Shown here: in pieces, positions 1,031 to 7,086 of the stretch
Numbering within the stretch: position 1 is the stretch's first letter
How the letters are laid out: every line of letters begins with the position of its first letter
Origin: Candidatus Zixiibacteriota bacterium
GTDB lineage: Bacteria > Zixibacteria > MSB-5A5 > GN15 > FEB-12
DNA length: 7,086 nt
Assembly: GCA_003641345.1 (NCBI GenBank)
Contig: QNAD01000106.1
Coordinates: forward strand, 1-7,086
Direction: 5' to 3'
Program-made: the position numbers and the translations under genes
The notes under the pieces: generated by a model
Told to the model about the DNA's origin: nothing
What the model saw: the letters and a program-made list of their open reading frames with translations, nothing else
Database searches by the model: none

Positions 1031-1238
1031 AATTTAAAATATTATATCATTTTAAAGCTGATAAATCACCAAAAAATTTAATTGTTCAAAATTTGCACAG
1101 TTTAAAATAAAAACCAAAACAGTTAAAATCTTTAAAATATAACCGATATATAAGGAAAACTGACAATTTTGCTATTTTTGGAATGAAATTATTTTGAAAA
1201 AACAAACAACAATAATTTACATTACCTAATGAGGAAAA
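1031..1238. other. Divergent intergenic region, 208 bp
   Basis: This very AT-rich spacer separates two divergent genes and must hold both 5' regions. It contains the extended -10 described for the leftward gene and three copies of TTTAAAATA on the plus strand (1033-1041, 1101-1109, 1131-1139). For the rightward gene I find no convincing promoter. TTGAAA at 1194-1199 has only poor -10 candidates downstream (TTACAT at 1217-1222), and these would leave too short a leader. A Shine-Dalgarno-like GAGGA at 1231-1235 sits just before the ATG at 1239. No RNA gene or intrinsic terminator is apparent. Confidence 0.5.
1041..1049 (-). promoter_or_regulatory. Candidate extended -10 promoter for the membrane protein gene
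   Basis: On the minus strand TGATATAAT matches the extended -10 consensus TGnTATAAT exactly. Only 10 bp separate it from the ATG at 1030, so a transcript would start about 4 nt before the start codon and be almost leaderless, which would fit the missing Shine-Dalgarno. No good -35 lies 16-18 bp upstream; TTGGTG at 1067-1072 is 20 bp away. About one such match is expected by chance in a window of this composition, so the position is the main support. Confidence 0.35.
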
Positions 1239-3368
1239 ATGAGAAAGAAAAGACTCGATGATATTCTTCTGGATCAAACCCAGGTAACCGAAGCTCAGAT
1301 TAAAATAGCTCTAAAACACCAAAAAATATATGGCGGGCGTTTTGGGTCTCTTTTAATGCATCATGGATTTATCAATGAAGAAAATTTGGTAAACGCATTA
1401 GCAACTCAATTTGAATGCGAGGGTGTAATTATTTCAAATTTGACTATTTCTGATGATATATTAAATCTAATACCCCCGGATATTGCCACTTCAAGAATGG
1501 TAGTTCCGTTTGATTATGACGAAAAAGACAATACTGTCTATGTTGCTTGCGAAGAACCTGACAACCAAAACTTAATTGATGAATTAAAATTCATAATTCC
1601 TGATAAAAATTTAAAATTATATGTAGCCGCCGAATTAGCTCTTGTAAATATTATTACTATTTTTTATAAGCCTCAACTTGAGAATAATAAAACCCAAAAA
1701 AATCCTTATTCCGGAACTTCCAAATTATCTTCCGATTTAATTTGTGATGAATTTGATGACATCTCTGATATCGTTGAAATATCTTCCAAATCAGCCCTCC
1801 TTGTAACAGATGATGATTCTTATACTCCTCTTATAAAAATGTTGCTTGAAGAAGATAACTATAAAGTCATTACAACCAATTCAGCTGATGATGCAATAGA
1901 TATTATCAAAGATAAAAAATTTGATGTTGTTTTTATTAAAGATACCGTCTCCGGAGATTATCTTGATTTGATTGACAGATTAAGAAAAAATTCTCCCAGT
2001 ACGTTTGTCCGTTATTTTGAATCTACTACCCAAATTTTATTAAACGAGAAAGATAATGAATCGGAATATAGTTTAATTGAAAGAAATCTGGAAATATTTT
2101 TATCACTTCTTTCTATCAAAGATAAAAACAACATAAATCATAGTGGACGGGTTGGAGAATATGTAAAAAAACTATGTGATATATTAGGATTGCCTCTCAA
2201 AGATAAAATGCTTGTTGTTAATGCAGGTTATATTCATGATTTGGCTCGCTTTTATTATCCTTCTCTAAGCAATGAAAACTATAAAAAGGTTATCAAAGAA
2301 ACAGTATCACTTCTTACTTCATTCAATTACGATCCGGTTGTAGTTGAAATGATAAGATCGATGTATATAGACTTAAAGAAAAAATATACAAAAAGATTAC
2401 CTATTGAAATTCTCGGCGGAAATATTATTACAATTTGTGATCTTTATTGTAAGAATATCACCAACGAACAACAACTGACTGTTGATAGATTCGAAATCCT
2501 TAAGCAAAAGTTTCAAGACCTCAAGGGACATCTTTTCTTGCCCGAAGTTGCAAAAGCTTTTATGAGATTGATTCAAAAAGAAATGCTGAACAGTAAAGCC
2601 ATTAACAAATTCAGTCAAATTTTAATTTATTCTAATCTACCCGAAGGTATGTTACCGCTGGAAACCCATTTAAACAAAGAACGATTTAGAACTATTACTG
2701 TTAATAATATTAATACTTTTATTAAACTTTACAACAGAAGCAACCCAGATATTATTCTTTTGAATCTAACATCTAATAAAGCTGATATTATTGATACTGT
2801 AAATATGATGAAAAGTGAAAATATCCATTTCAATGAAATCCCAACTTTGGTGTTAACCAATAATGATTTAATCGATCAGATTCAATCTCTGACTAAAGAA
2901 GGTATTGAAGATATTATTGAACATCAATTAAATCATGATTTTATTGTAATGAAAATAAAGAAAATTAGAGATCGTACTGAAAAAAGAGCCACCAGGCAAA
3001 AGTCTGTAATTAAAGGTGAATCTTCTACAAAAGGGAACCTGTCTGATTTAAACCTAATAGACCTGCTACAGGCTTTGGGACCAAGTCAACGCACCGCTAA
3101 AATCAAAGTGGAATCTGCTCACTCCGAAGAAGAAGAACTAATTATTTATCTACATCATGGTAATATTATTTATGCGGAATTATCCGGAATTAAAGGCGCC
3201 GATGCCGTATATCAGGCATTGGGATGGCCAAACGGAACCTGGTCGGTAGAACAAATCAAAGAAGATAATCTGCCAGAGCCTAATAATGAAATTCCTAATG
3301 AATCAATTCTGATGGAAGGTTGTCGGTTAATAGATGAAACAACATTCACAAAAAAAGTGAATGTATAA
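1239..3368 (+). CDS. MshEN - pseudo-receiver - degenerate HD-GYP - pseudo-receiver - DUF4388/PATAN-like protein
   Basis: 709 residues, probably cytoplasmic: no signal peptide or membrane helix. Domains in order: MshEN c-di-GMP-binding fold (about 1-143) with tandem 24-residue motifs at 5-28 and 34-57; receiver-like segment (about 185-261) with acidic D191-D193 but K234 at the expected phospho-Asp position; HD-GYP-like domain (about 296-445) keeping NHSGRV (300-305), IHDLA (332-336) and ITICD (397-401), but lacking the HHExxDGxGYP block; second receiver-like domain (about 459-577) with N509 in PDIILLNL where Asp is expected; DUF4388/PATAN-like domain (about 598-673) with GNLSDLNLIDLLQAL, YLHHGNIIYAE and GTWSVEQ. 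Catalysis and phosphorelay therefore look lost. I infer a c-di-GMP-responsive scaffold, perhaps for a type IV pilus or secretion motor. The start is supported by GAGGA at 1231-1235, only 3 nt from the ATG. The reading frame is intact, so this is not a decayed pseudogene. Confidence 0.9.
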   Translation: MRKKRLDDILLDQTQVTEAQIKIALKHQKIYGGRFGSLLMHHGFINEENLVNALATQFECEGVIISNLTISDDILNLIPPDIATSRMVVPFDYDEKDNTVYVACEEPDNQNLIDELKFIIPDKNLKLYVAAELALVNIITIFYKPQLENNKTQKNPYSGTSKLSSDLICDEFDDISDIVEISSKSALLVTDDDSYTPLIKMLLEEDNYKVITTNSADDAIDIIKDKKFDVVFIKDTVSGDYLDLIDRLRKNSPSTFVRYFESTTQILLNEKDNESEYSLIERNLEIFLSLLSIKDKNNINHSGRVGEYVKKLCDILGLPLKDKMLVVNAGYIHDLARFYYPSLSNENYKKVIKETVSLLTSFNYDPVVVEMIRSMYIDLKKKYTKRLPIEILGGNIITICDLYCKNITNEQQLTVDRFEILKQKFQDLKGHLFLPEVAKAFMRLIQKEMLNSKAINKFSQILIYSNLPEGMLPLETHLNKERFRTITVNNINTFIKLYNRSNPDIILLNLTSNKADIIDTVNMMKSENIHFNEIPTLVLTNNDLIDQIQSLTKEGIEDIIEHQLNHDFIVMKIKKIRDRTEKRATRQKSVIKGESSTKGNLSDLNLIDLLQALGPSQRTAKIKVESAHSEEEELIIYLHHGNIIYAELSGIKGADAVYQALGWPNGTWSVEQIKEDNLPEPNNEIPNESILMEGCRLIDETTFTKKVNV

Positions 3369-3372
3369 ATTA

Positions 3373-4389
3373 TTATTGTAATTTTTCAAATTTCTTAATT
3401 TTGTCTTTTTGACGATCCCTGATAGATTCTGGAATTTTATCATCATATTTAAAAAATAATTCTACGATTTTATCTATTTCTAATTCGTTTTTAGATTTCT
3501 TATACAGAAGATACAAATTGTAATCACACTCAATCAAATTGTAATAATTCCCCGGTTCTTGAGATAACTTTTCTCTTAAATATTTATACTGCTCAATTGC
3601 TTTTGGATAATTACCTATATCTAAATAAGATTTAGCTAACGCCCATCGGAATAGTTTTCCATCTGGGAAATATCCAAGAAGCTCTTCACATGCCGTAATA
3701 GAAGAATCATATTTTTTTTCATTCATCCAAATCCAGATTAGAGCATTCAATGAAGAATAACAGGAAATTACAGAAGAATCTCTTGCCAGATATAATTCTT
3801 CAATACCCTTTTTTTTATCATTGCTAAACAGACCGATAGTTCTTAACAGTCCGGCTTTGACAGATTTCCAATAGTGAAAACCGCCCAGTCCCATATAGAG
3901 GTCATAAAGTTTATATCTTTTCAAACCATTTTCGTAGTTGCCTTTAGCTTTATAAGCTAATTTTAAAGCAGAAAAACCGGAACCGAACCTGGCTTCATAT
4001 AATGAATGATAAATACGGGCATGTCCTCTAAACAGATACATCCATGCGGCAGTAGTATCATCACAATTTTTTAATTTTTGTTCGGTGAAAATATAAATAG
4101 AATCAAGAATTTTCAGAAAACTCTCACCATAAATATTTTCTTCTTTGTCAGAACTATTACTAAGCATCATTGATGCTTTCATCATATAACCACCCGGATC
4201 ATCAGGTGAATTGTCAGTAAATAAAGTTACTAAAGAATCTGCCTGTGAGAATTTATCATTAAAAAGGTAGTTCTCTGTAAGAAGAAAAAACTCTCTTTTC
4301 TCATCAGTTAGATAGTCAGCTTTAGATATTTGCAAACAAAATATCAGAATGATTGGAAACAGGTAAAAAAACCTGGAATATTTTTTCAT
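3373..4389 (-). CDS. Exported TPR-repeat protein
   Basis: 338 residues. The N-terminus is a clear Sec signal peptide: K2, K3 and R6, a hydrophobic core at about 7-20, and a signal-peptidase-I-type site after S22-K23-A24. C18 in LIFC is not a good lipobox because Phe precedes the Cys, so a periplasmic protein is more likely than a lipoprotein. The mature part is helical, with TPR-like helix pairs at about 31-64, 211-244 and 245-280 (the last includes ALAKSYLDIGNYPKAIEQY). A conserved-looking central block, YMGLGGFHYWKSVKAGL (165-181), resembles uncharacterised TPR proteins of FCB-type bacteria. TPRs bind proteins or peptides; no enzyme motif is visible and the partner is unknown. Its stop lies 4 bp from the stop of the convergent gene at 3368. 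It has its own candidate promoter upstream and no strong Shine-Dalgarno. Confidence 0.88.
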   Translation of the reverse strand: MKKYSRFFYLFPIILIFCLQISKADYLTDEKREFFLLTENYLFNDKFSQADSLVTLFTDNSPDDPGGYMMKASMMLSNSSDKEENIYGESFLKILDSIYIFTEQKLKNCDDTTAAWMYLFRGHARIYHSLYEARFGSGFSALKLAYKAKGNYENGLKRYKLYDLYMGLGGFHYWKSVKAGLLRTIGLFSNDKKKGIEELYLARDSSVISCYSSLNALIWIWMNEKKYDSSITACEELLGYFPDGKLFRWALAKSYLDIGNYPKAIEQYKYLREKLSQEPGNYYNLIECDYNLYLLYKKSKNELEIDKIVELFFKYDDKIPESIRDRQKDKIKKFEKLQ

Positions 4390-4431
4390 TTTAGTAACTT
4401 ATCTAAATTTTCGTGAAAGGTAAATCAAAAA

Positions 4432-4459
4432 ATTATAAGATTGAATAGCTCGGCGTAAA
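4432..4459 (-). promoter_or_regulatory. Candidate sigma-70-type promoter for the TPR gene
   Basis: On the minus strand TTTACG (4459-4454) and a perfect TATAAT (4437-4432) are separated by 16 bp. The -35 matches TTGACA at four of six positions. Transcription would begin near 4425 and leave a leader of about 35 nt before the ATG at 4389. This suggests the TPR gene is its own transcription unit rather than the tail of the sigma operon 178 bp upstream. TATAAT alone is common in DNA this AT-rich, so confidence is moderate. Confidence 0.42.
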
Positions 4460-4471
4460 CTTAATTCTTTT

Positions 4472-4487
4472 ACCACAGATTTGTGGT
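4472..4487. repeat. Perfect inverted repeat upstream of the TPR gene promoter
   Basis: ACCACA (4472-4477), a 4-nt gap GATT, then TGTGGT (4482-4487) form a perfect 6-bp dyad. Its centre is about 55 bp upstream of the predicted TPR gene transcript start, a place where activators often bind. Read on the minus strand it is followed by AAAAG rather than a T-run, so it is not an intrinsic terminator for the sigma operon. On the plus strand TTTT follows, but no plus-strand gene ends here. An operator is the likelier role, though chance is possible. Confidence 0.4.
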
Positions 4488-4567
4488 TTTACGAATATTC
4501 TGGAATCTCAAATTTTCTTATAGGAGTTATTTCGGCTAAAGAAATAGCAATTGAATCGTTTATTTTT

Positions 4568-4816
4568 TTAACATGATTGAGAATCTATTTCGTCCATTTT
4601 CGTCATAATACGATTTTTTAAATCACCAAGGCTAGCCAGTGGATTGTCGTTTTTTAGTTTGGTTTCAATAAAATCATTAATATTATTTTCCAGCTTAAAC
4701 ATTTTAAAACAGTCTTTACATTTGGAGAGATGTTCTTTGATCTGTTTTTCGTCAATGTCTGAGACTTCTTTATCAATGTAATCGTATAAAAGTTCGAGTG
4801 CTTCTTGGCAATCCAT
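4568..4816 (-). CDS. Small soluble zinc-type anti-sigma factor (RsrA/zf-HC2-like)
   Basis: 82 residues with the zinc anti-sigma signature HxxxCxxC at H29-C33-C36 and an upstream C3. The spacing C3 to H29 (26 residues) and then C33, C36 equals that of the zinc ligands I recall for Streptomyces coelicolor RsrA (C11, H37, C41, C44). There is no membrane helix, so it should be cytosolic and hold the sigma factor inactive until thiol oxidation or another signal releases zinc. The last residue is also a cysteine (C82). The ATG overlaps the sigma gene stop codon by one base (TAATG), with AAGGA nine bases upstream, indicating co-transcription and translational coupling that would keep the two proteins near a fixed ratio. 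Redox sensing is inferred from spacing; a plain zf-HC2 anti-sigma responding to another cue is the alternative. Confidence 0.88.
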   Translation of the reverse strand: MDCQEALELLYDYIDKEVSDIDEKQIKEHLSKCKDCFKMFKLENNINDFIETKLKNDNPLASLGDLKNRIMTKMDEIDSQSC

Positions 4817-5415
4817 TATTTCAAATCCTTGATGTAACCGTTTTTGATAGCATAATCATATAGTTCTTTTTGCAACAATTTTCGACCTCGATGTAATCTC
4901 GATTTTACGGTTCCAAGTTGCAAATCGGCAATTTCAGCAATTTCCTGATATGAAAAACCCTCTAAGAAAGAAAGAATAATTACTACCCTAAAATCATCGG
5001 GAAGGTTTTCAATAGCTTTTTTGACATCATCATCAAAAACTTTAGCGAATAATTGTTTTTCAGGGTCCTCCATATTTACATCGGATGCCAACTGACCAAT
5101 AAGGAAGTTGTCATCTATTTCATCGACATTAACCGCCACGGGCGATCTCGATTTTGAACGATACTCATTGATAAAAATGTTGGTCATAATCTTAAATAAC
5201 CACGCACGACAATTTGACCCCGGTTCAAATTTATCCCAAAACCGGTAGGCTTTTACTATCGCTTCCTGAACCAAATCCTCGGCATCTTTATCATTTTTTG
5301 TCATCCGAAGAGCAGTTCTAAATAAAGCATCCATATGAGGCAGAGCTTCATTTTCGAAGCTTTTTCGCTTTAACTGTATCGTTTCTTTTCCGAGAGCCAT
5401 ATTCAGTTTTTCCAT
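4816..5415 (-). CDS. ECF RNA polymerase sigma factor, SigR/SigH-like
   Basis: 199 residues with the two domains of an ECF (group 4) sigma factor and no region 1 or 3. Sigma-2 spans about 22-88: DAEDLVQEAIVKAYRFW (44-60) is region 2.2, and NCRAWLFKIMTNIFINEYR (68-86) covers regions 2.3-2.4. Sigma-4 spans about 131-185 with the helix-turn-helix FSYQEIAEIADLQLGTVKSR (154-173). The segment GSNCRAWLFKIMTNIFINEYR resembles SigR/SigH/RpoE-type ECFs, which work with RsrA-like anti-sigma factors, and such a gene follows directly. The ATG at 5415 has GAGAGG touching it with no spacer, which is unusual. A second in-frame ATG at 5400 (Met6) could be used instead; both keep sigma-2 whole. An in-frame TAA at 5443-5445 rules out a longer protein. 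Likely autoregulated from the GGAAC-N18-GTT promoter upstream. Confidence 0.93.
   Translation of the reverse strand: MEKLNMALGKETIQLKRKSFENEALPHMDALFRTALRMTKNDKDAEDLVQEAIVKAYRFWDKFEPGSNCRAWLFKIMTNIFINEYRSKSRSPVAVNVDEIDDNFLIGQLASDVNMEDPEKQLFAKVFDDDVKKAIENLPDDFRVVIILSFLEGFSYQEIAEIADLQLGTVKSRLHRGRKLLQKELYDYAIKNGYIKDLK
4826..4830 (-). promoter_or_regulatory. Shine-Dalgarno of the anti-sigma gene inside the sigma gene end
   Basis: AAGGA on the minus strand lies nine bases before the anti-sigma ATG (4816-4814), within the last codons of the sigma gene. It fixes this start and, with the TAATG overlap, supports re-initiation by ribosomes finishing the sigma factor. Confidence 0.6.
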
Positions 5416-5728: not shown

Positions 5729-7086
5729 TTATATTTTTGAAATTTTAACTGGTCGGTCAAGCTCTGTTCTTACAGCGGTTGCAATAACATTTTTTGTTAT
5801 AGGTTTTTTTATGAAAGCACCAGCTCCCAGTTCCTGAGCTTTGAAAACTTTATCCGATTCTGAAAATCCTGATAAGATTATTGCTTTTTGGTTAGAATTA
5901 ATCTCAAGTATTCGTTCGTATGTTTCCGCTCCGTCAATTCCTCCCGGCATCACCATATCAAGAATAACTAAATCCTGAGGATTATTTTTCAAGAAATCAA
6001 CAGCTTTTTCTCCACTTTCAACAACATTAACTTTGTATCCCAATTTATTAAGAAGCAATACCGCAACATCACGTTGGATTTTATCATCATCTACAAGCAG
6101 GATTGTTTCATTGCCGCCTAAGATGCCATTGGATTTACTCTCAACAATATCTTCTCTGGTAACAGGAAAATAAATGTAGAAAGAAGTGCCATAGCCAACT
6201 TTACTGCTTAAATCTAAATATGCATTATGATCTTTTAAGACAGCATCAACAACACTTAATCCAAGTCCGGAACCGCGTACTTTGTCAGTTGTTTTGGTTG
6301 AGAAAAACGGGTCAAGGATTTTTTGAATAATATCGTTTGGGATACCACATCCTGTATCGGAAATAGTTAATTTTACATATTCCCCTTTGGGGACACGTCC
6401 AAACGAAATTGAAGTATCGTCTGCATAATAATTTTCAGTCTTAATAGAAATATTTCCAACATTTTGCATAGCATCTTGAGCATTGACAAATAGATTAGTA
6501 AGCATGCGGTGAATTTGAGCACTTCCGCCTTTTATATTCAATAAGTTTTCACTAAGATTCAATTCACAAATTATATTTTTAGCTCGTAATTCCATTTCTT
6601 TGGCTGCCTGCAATACAATTTGATTTAGATTTAGAACGTTCTGCTCATAATGCCCTCTTCGTCCCATAGTCAAAAGGTCTTGGTTGATATTGGCAATTTT
6701 CTGAGCGGCTTTTTCTATATCATCTAAATATGCTCTTGCTTTGTGGTCGTGTGGAAGGTCATCTTTAATCAGTTCAGGATATGCCATTATGGGGCCTAAC
6801 AAATTATTGAAATCGTGCGCAACCTGTCCGGCAATAGTACCTGCCATTTCAAGCCGGTCGGCGCGTGATTCCAACTGTTGAAGGCGTTTGATTTCGGTGA
6901 TGTCACGATTGCTACCGCGTTGCCCAATATTCTTTCCGTCTATATCATAAACAGTCTGGCGTATGTGACCAATCCATCTAATATCTTTGTTTTTAGTGAT
7001 AATACGAAATTCTATTGGTGAAATTTCGCCGGATTCAAGAACTTCATGATTATGGTCTTTAACAAAATGAATATCTTCGGGGTGAA
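5729..7086 (-). CDS. PAS - histidine kinase - receiver hybrid sensor kinase, N-terminus beyond the right edge
   Basis: The frame is open from the window edge to the TAA at 5729-5731, giving 451 visible residues; the true start lies outside. Residues 1-66 are the C-terminal half of a PAS/PAC domain (starts HPEDIHFV, ends GSNRDITEIKRLQQ). HisKA follows with the H-box VAHDFNNLLGPI, phospho-His H90. The HATPase_c domain has N-box NLFVNAQDAM (about 197-206), G1 DTGCG (D243) and G2 GSGLGL (271-276). A C-terminal receiver (about 328-440) has acidic D332-D334, phosphoacceptor D376 in LVILDMVMPGG, S405 and K427 of FIKKP. All catalytic and phosphotransfer residues are present, so this is a functional hybrid kinase that autophosphorylates on His and passes phosphate to its own receiver. 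No output domain follows, so it probably feeds a separate phosphotransfer protein or is tuned by its receiver. The signal and partner are not visible. Confidence 0.93.
   Translation of the reverse strand, partial: HPEDIHFVKDHNHEVLESGEISPIEFRIITKNKDIRWIGHIRQTVYDIDGKNIGQRGSNRDITEIKRLQQLESRADRLEMAGTIAGQVAHDFNNLLGPIMAYPELIKDDLPHDHKARAYLDDIEKAAQKIANINQDLLTMGRRGHYEQNVLNLNQIVLQAAKEMELRAKNIICELNLSENLLNIKGGSAQIHRMLTNLFVNAQDAMQNVGNISIKTENYYADDTSISFGRVPKGEYVKLTISDTGCGIPNDIIQKILDPFFSTKTTDKVRGSGLGLSVVDAVLKDHNAYLDLSSKVGYGTSFYIYFPVTREDIVESKSNGILGGNETILLVDDDKIQRDVAVLLLNKLGYKVNVVESGEKAVDFLKNNPQDLVILDMVMPGGIDGAETYERILEINSNQKAIILSGFSESDKVFKAQELGAGAFIKKPITKNVIATAVRTELDRPVKISKI

Follow-up and report, generated by a model that had tools for sequence, protein, structure and literature searches.

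Introduction

MshEN, the direct receptor domain for cyclic di-GMP (c-di-GMP), is best known from extension ATPases, and to our knowledge it is poorly understood how this nucleotide comes to act on pilus retraction. An MshEN receptor is defined by two motifs of 24 residues each, separated by 5 residues, the pattern RLG...L...L..Q occurring in each, and fusions of MshEN to receiver (REC) and to HD-GYP domains are already in print (PMC5013675). Also known already are PATAN regulators of PilB, of which those of Synechocystis bind PilB1/PilC (PMC12288463, PMC7690835), PATAN proteins of Myxococcus xanthus (MXAN_3211, MXAN_4965; PMC11580455), and HD-GYP receptors without hydrolysis, such as DvhD, whose HD-GYP domain lacks key metal ligands and serves as a c-di-GMP receptor (PMC13090378). 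Here we describe a five-module gene on the forward strand of a 7,086-nucleotide (nt) stretch of contig QNAD01000106.1 from a Candidatus Zixiibacteriota bacterium; the whole stretch is called the window, and the gene product the adaptor. The adaptor probably couples the level of a cyclic dinucleotide to a motor ATPase of type IV pili, with its N-terminal MshEN domain as the input and its C-terminal DUF4388 domain as the output, the ligand and the partner both being presumptive.

Results

A Single Frame of Five Modules

The adaptor is encoded by a single real frame of 709 amino acids (aa), and the domain order named in the original prediction, which was made from the DNA alone (MshEN, receiver, HD-GYP-like, receiver, DUF4388), was recovered: DUF4388 through PF14332, MshEN and HD-GYP as folds. 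The MshEN fold was confirmed for the N-terminal domain. A fold search with the whole model returned mostly receivers, so the HD part was folded separately, and the HD-GYP fold was confirmed for aa 271-455.

1239..3368, + strand: whole gene, 709 aa, MshEN - receiver 1 - HD-GYP-fold domain - receiver 2 - DUF4388
1231..1234, + strand: GAGG, ribosome-binding-site-like, 4 nt 5' of the ATG, as read from the sequence
1239..1679, + strand: MshEN domain, aa 1-147
1788..2048, + strand: receiver 1, aa 184-270, the fifth strand missing in the predicted model
2049..2603, + strand: HD-GYP-fold domain, aa 271-455
2604..3014, + strand: receiver 2, aa 456-592, a pseudo-receiver (N509 at the acceptor site)
3030..3341, + strand: DUF4388 domain, aa 598-701 (PF14332, 62.5 bits, cut-off 25)

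A search of 5.8 billion proteins gave 191 relatives at E<=1e-3 from 7,991 scored candidates; these homologues, together with strict conservation, rule out a chance frame or a pseudogene. Most of the 120 relatives listed match the adaptor in length and in precomputed domains. When 84,980 species genomes were scanned, 82 stretches matched and 38 loci were confirmed, mostly Zixibacteria by name, with some GN15, Calditrichota and FCB group; the scan relied on two core-specific peptide patterns, which far relatives in other phyla could escape. All 38 genomes belong to a set of 132 genomes of one phylum, 66 of which (counted by eye) hold an adaptor-family match of at least 450 bits. This number is used instead of 104/132 because the 104 include weak matches to MshEN alone in frames of PilB/GspE size.

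Conservation was counted throughout in a family alignment of 118 sequences. Pairwise identity in this alignment is only 38-79% (600 sampled pairs), and the invariance of single sites is therefore informative. Receiver 2 is the least conserved of the five modules, with a mean top-residue frequency of 0.50, while 27 of the 114 columns of the DUF4388 region (aa 596-709) are at least 95% conserved. Eight relatives of 423-460 aa (L059-L066) lack receiver 1 and the HD domain but have MshEN and DUF4388; BLAST finds a receiver-2-like stretch in six of the eight, a Pfam scan of two of them shows no receiver, and many further relatives of this length came up in a protein search. Since these proteins keep both ends without receiver 1 and HD, the MshEN and DUF4388 ends are the constant part of the family.

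The MshEN Pocket Is Kept in the Adaptor and Degenerate in PilB

1251..1322, + strand: MshEN motif I, aa 5-28, R5 L6 D7 ... I21 ... L25 ... Q28, with Asp where Gly is usual
1338..1409, + strand: MshEN motif II, aa 34-57, R34 F35 G36 ... L50 ... L54 ... Q57

The spacing of the two motifs (aa 5-28 and 34-57) matches the MshEN definition exactly, and the R, L, L and Q positions are retained, the third place being D7 in motif I and G36 in motif II. R5, L25 and Q28 of motif I are found in 118/118 sequences and D7 in 117/118; in motif II the figures are 118/118 for G36 and L54, 117/118 for L50 and 114/118 for Q57. Position 34 is Lys in 94/118 and Arg in 24/118. In a Thermus PilF construct, Ala at the Gly of motif II that corresponds to this place cut binding 10- to 30-fold (PMC12002112), D7 standing where motif I normally has such a Gly. 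The pocket residues are also retained in most of the divergent relatives; the exceptions are L068, with Cys at 36 and His at 57, and L070 and L071, whose N-termini are unaligned. In the short relatives L059-L066 the third place is Glu in motif II (position 36) and Asp in motif I (Thr in L062), and one of them is without R5.

PilB of the same phylum was searched in 30 chosen genomes and examined at 26 loci, 25 of them with the N-terminus and 23/26 over the TIGR02538 cut-off. Glu or Asp replaces the MshEN Arg in 25/25, the first Gln (28) is kept in 1/25 and the second (57) in 8/25. To judge from these sequences, PilB of this phylum has lost its own c-di-GMP pocket, whereas that of the adaptor is nearly invariant, the unusual D7 aside. 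GGDEF genes occur in 30/30 of the relatives' genomes examined. Because PilB in these bacteria lacks a pocket of its own, we propose that the adaptor would act in trans as the c-di-GMP sensor for the pilus.

A PilT-Type ATPase Gene Lies Directly Upstream in Relatives

At several loci the adaptor gene is immediately preceded by one for a PilT-family ATPase (PF00437), here called PilT2. The copy at L014:8894-9982 scores 439.7 bits with TIGR01420 against a cut-off of 319.1 and has an intact Walker A motif, GPTNSGKTTT. PilT2 is 362 aa long, with the TIGR01420 match running from residue 4 and no MshEN, and is 44% identical to the housekeeping PilT of G014. A profile made from five adaptor-adjacent PilT proteins (A2), when run over the 132 genomes, gave 24 matches at 452-698 bits, clear of the remainder at 425 bits or less. 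As read by eye from tables of best matches only, 23 of the 24 lie immediately upstream of an adaptor-family member on the same strand; the 24th (G064, L042) stops at a contig edge, with the order glyS-recO-divIC-pilT2. Two further PilT2 copies, partial and at the ends of their contigs (G034, G078), likewise lie beside an adaptor-family member. Pairs of pilT2 and adaptor gene were measured in 21 of 25 genomes (all but L047, L049, L054 and L056); 19 of the 21 pairs have a spacing of -4 to +1 nt, and the other two one of 33-42 nt.

The PilT2-linked relatives L052, L053, L055 and L057 (684-700 aa; all four scanned) keep MshEN and DUF4388, with most of the middle unrecognised by Pfam; L054 (G129) and L056 (G131), likewise linked to PilT2, have frames longer than this.

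In two of the three relatives searched (G014, 403-405 aa; G038, 411 aa), no more than about 8 kb separates another DUF4388 frame from pilT and pilB; in the third, G028, the listed DUF4388 matches are on contigs other than those of the listed PilT/PilB-type matches. Of 14 control genomes, those of Synechococcus elongatus, Thermus and Deinobacterium gave DUF4388 matches and the others none. The G014 cluster (L079, 4497-14489) runs pilC-pilT-pilB, followed by genes for an Arf/Ras-type GTPase, a TPR-roadblock protein and the DUF4388 protein, a set that we take to be reminiscent of the MglA/MglB polarity system of Myxococcus.

PilT2 has no MshEN of its own, yet it is co-encoded with an MshEN protein. 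This would also be expected if MshEN were a docking module that takes the place of the PilB N-terminal domain on the pilus base and recruits PilT2, the two proteins together forming a split motor with no nucleotide being needed. We regard such a role as unlikely. The backbone-contact Gly of motif I is indeed replaced by an invariant Asp, and some MshEN domains, that of XpsE for example, have ceased to bind (PMC5013675); but the c-di-GMP-contacting side chains (R5, L25, Q28, L50, L54 and Q57) are kept in 114-118 of 118 sequences and mostly lost in the phylum's PilB, which speaks against a pure dock, as a dock would not need them.

Ligands of the HD-GYP-Fold Domain and Acceptor Sites of the Receivers

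The best structural match of the HD domain is DvhD. The metal ligands of PmGH are E185, H189, H221, D222, H250, H276, H277 and D305, and Ala at H250, H276 or H277 abolishes its hydrolysis of c-di-GMP (PMC4159591). The following equivalents are present in the adaptor.

2139..2141, + strand: H301 = PmGH H189, 117/118, from the HMMER alignment to PmGH
2235..2240, + strand: H333-D334, the HD dyad = PmGH H221-D222, 118/118 and 113/118, from the HMMER alignment to PmGH
2439..2441, + strand: D401 = PmGH D305, 118/118, placed by the alignment to DvhD, which has Asn there

Equivalents of E185, H250, H276 and H277 are absent (positions by reading of the alignment), and the HHExxDGxGYP motif is missing, the region reading SMYIDLKKKYTKRLPIEILGG. 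A basic residue (R/K) occupies the site of PmGH K225 in 111/118. Hydrolysis of c-di-GMP by this domain is unlikely, because the three His whose replacement abolishes it in PmGH have no equivalents here. On the other hand, a putative four-ligand H...HD...D metal site is plausible. L050-L053, L055, L057 and L067-L069, as well as the core members L074 and L075, have lost at least one of these four ligands; of the far relatives, L070 keeps all four and L071 three. That the domain is still an enzyme, a regulated phosphohydrolase with one metal on H301, H333, D334 and D401 that acts on another phosphate compound, appears doubtful to us, with these four ligands on its side and the absence of the other four against it.

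In both receivers the acceptor Asp after beta-3 is missing. The acceptor site of receiver 1 is K234 (codon 1938-1940), with K/R in 114/118, and conserved residues flank it in the domain (D191 and D235, each 116/118). Phosphorylation of receiver 1 through D235 was considered and rejected, as alignments to NtrC-type and PorX receivers place K234 at the acceptor site and D235 one position later. The acceptor site of receiver 2 is N509; the column holds L/I/A/V/M in 95/118, and Asp is outside its seven commonest residues. Both receivers are thus predicted to accept a phosphoryl group no longer. The Synechocystis PATAN regulators have a receiver with the acceptor Asp fused to PATAN, and receiver 2 of the adaptor is without this Asp.

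It had been predicted that three modules lack the residues for their chemistry, that the protein is non-catalytic throughout, and that selection acts on binding rather than catalysis. For the two receivers, and as far as c-di-GMP hydrolysis is concerned, these statements fit, E185, H250, H276 and H277 having no counterparts in the HD domain. They go too far for the HD domain as a whole, where four core metal ligands are retained in an H...HD...D arrangement and a metal site is plausible.

Neighboring Genes

Genes for a TPR protein, an anti-sigma factor and an extracytoplasmic function (ECF) sigma factor (window 3373-5415) adjoin the adaptor gene in convergent orientation and are common to many relatives. 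The zf-HC2 anti-sigma gene at 4568-4816 encodes 82 aa, compared with about 264 aa in many relatives; that of G049 (L044) is also short, at 88 aa. Counting the window and the 38 loci, many of which are short, the TPR cluster is present in 21/39 and the ECF sigma cluster in 18/39. One might therefore suppose that the adaptor acts with these genes in envelope stress and not on pili, and the counts, which include the window, are in favor of it. We find this improbable: the genes are convergent and outside the adaptor's operon, they were not seen beside the PilT2-linked L050-L053, L055 and L057, and the order adaptor-sigma often occurs in a block with glyS-recO-divIC. This conserved block consists of glyS-recO-divIC, the adaptor gene with or without pilT2 (L044 is an example with it, L074 without), and then TPR-anti-sigma-ECF sigma or part of it. 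As it includes housekeeping genes, the shared order may be merely inherited.

On the minus strand at 5729-7084 is a partial gene for a PAS-histidine kinase-receiver hybrid. A partial gene for a hydrophobic protein with no Pfam match, at 2-1030 on the minus strand, is divergent from the adaptor gene; many relatives have divIC-recO-glyS there.

Discussion

We return to the coupling of a cyclic dinucleotide to the pilus motor, in which the protein would serve as a cytoplasmic adaptor. The N-terminal MshEN domain would be the input and would bind c-di-GMP or a close relative of it. The three modules between the two ends would form a transmission body or scaffold that has lost phosphorylation and probably c-di-GMP hydrolysis; its H...HD...D site may carry one metal ion. 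The C-terminal DUF4388 domain would be the output and touch the motor ATPase. The ancestral partner would have been the PilT2 encoded just upstream. For the window's clade, where PilT2 has seemingly been lost, the partner could be the housekeeping PilT or PilB, or the function could have shifted.

The original prediction already included a possible link, through this protein, between c-di-GMP and a pilus or secretion motor. For the pilus this idea has gained from PilT2 upstream in relatives, from DUF4388 near pilB-pilT in two of three relatives, from the decay of the PilB pocket and from GGDEF genes in 30/30 genomes. It has lost ground in the window's own clade, which is without PilT2, and at D7.

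Several observations weigh against the coupling. D7 (117/118) stands at the third-place Gly of motif I and is a warning on c-di-GMP binding. The match to NF053729 was dropped as a proof of such binding, since degenerate PilB also passes the cut-off (43.8 bits). PilZ is found in 28/30 of the genomes examined, for which reason we rejected the adaptor as the sole c-di-GMP receptor of the cell. What is more, a second PilB/GspE-type ATPase has a motif nearer to the consensus (at four loci, with Lys for the first Arg and Arg for the second Gln), so that there is another candidate receptor besides the adaptor. At the output end, DUF4388 and PATAN are presumed to be one family. The HD tetrad is lost or broken in divergent relatives linked to PilT2 (L050-L053, L055, L057). 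The ligand, the binding of a partner, the effect on retraction (help or hinder) and any partner in the window's clade are what we infer.

The link to PilT2 has its own difficulties. PilT as such is near-universal in the phylum, A2 matching at E<=1e-60 in 129/132 genomes and PilT exceeding the TIGR01420 cut-off in 37/38 host genomes; only the adjacency of PilT2 is therefore informative, and not co-occurrence. PilT2 was not found in the 7,086-nt window (tblastn, best E 7.6). In a tree of 53 adaptor-family rows (fragments below 600 aa left out), those linked to PilT2 branch off at the base, and in the 31-row clade that includes the window each of the 29 labelled rows is without an adjacent PilT2, the two contig-start rows being unlabelled. 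The tree has 4 changes, the support of the 31-row clade is 90, not starred, and long branches meet among the outer rows. A single loss of PilT2 at the base of the window's clade would fit this tree. With no PilT2 beside the gene in the window or in the other 28 labelled rows, a motor partner in this clade is presumptive.

A more specific form of the coupling, which we put forward tentatively as a possibility, is a split motor. MshEN sensing would have moved from PilB, whose pocket has decayed, to the separate adaptor, and the adaptor would set the activity or docking of PilT2. Control would thus be exerted in trans, with retraction as its target, by way of dead receivers and a body with a metal site that is inactive as an HD-GYP enzyme, and D7 may mark a changed ligand preference.

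The architecture had not been recognized as a described system at the outset, which agrees with our search of the open-access literature: neither a fusion of MshEN to DUF4388 nor a PilT co-encoded with such a protein was found there, and a review of PilB cofactors does not mention PATAN (PMC11656802). A phylum in which MshEN resides in a separate adaptor, often co-encoded with a PilT of its own, and in which the PilB pocket has decayed would put to a natural test the separability of sensing from the motor. DUF4388, a name that is scarce in the open-access literature, would gain a concrete, testable role and a partner.

The domains of the FimX-PilZ-PilB complex differ from those of the adaptor, and we know of no dedicated PilT in its operon. 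There, too, separate c-di-GMP-linked proteins act on a pilus ATPase, the target being PilB (PMC8389850). With the MshE/PilB-type extension ATPases, such as Vibrio cholerae MshE (PMC5013675), the adaptor shares the MshEN fold, most pocket residues and the link to type IV pili; in contrast to them it has no ATPase, its MshEN is followed by receivers, HD and DUF4388, and Asp occupies the third place of motif I. Synechocystis PixE, PixG and LsiR (PMC7690835, PMC12288463, PMC9090330) likewise combine a DUF4388/PATAN-type domain with a receiver and are proposed to contact the pilus motor. The accessible portions of these papers describe no MshEN or HD module in them, whereas the adaptor has receivers that lack the acceptor Asp, with MshEN as the likely input. 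The active phosphodiesterase PmGH (PMC4159591) has in common with the adaptor the HD fold, four of the eight metal ligands and the basic residue at the K225 site; the adaptor differs in lacking E185, H250, H276, H277 and HHExxDGxGYP. DvhD of Desulfovibrio vulgaris, the PAS/HD-GYP receptor of an adhesin protease system (PMC13090378), resembles the adaptor HD domain in fold, and is used as a receptor with no hydrolysis of c-di-GMP. Its HD motif, however, reads SQ, while the adaptor family keeps H...HD...D.
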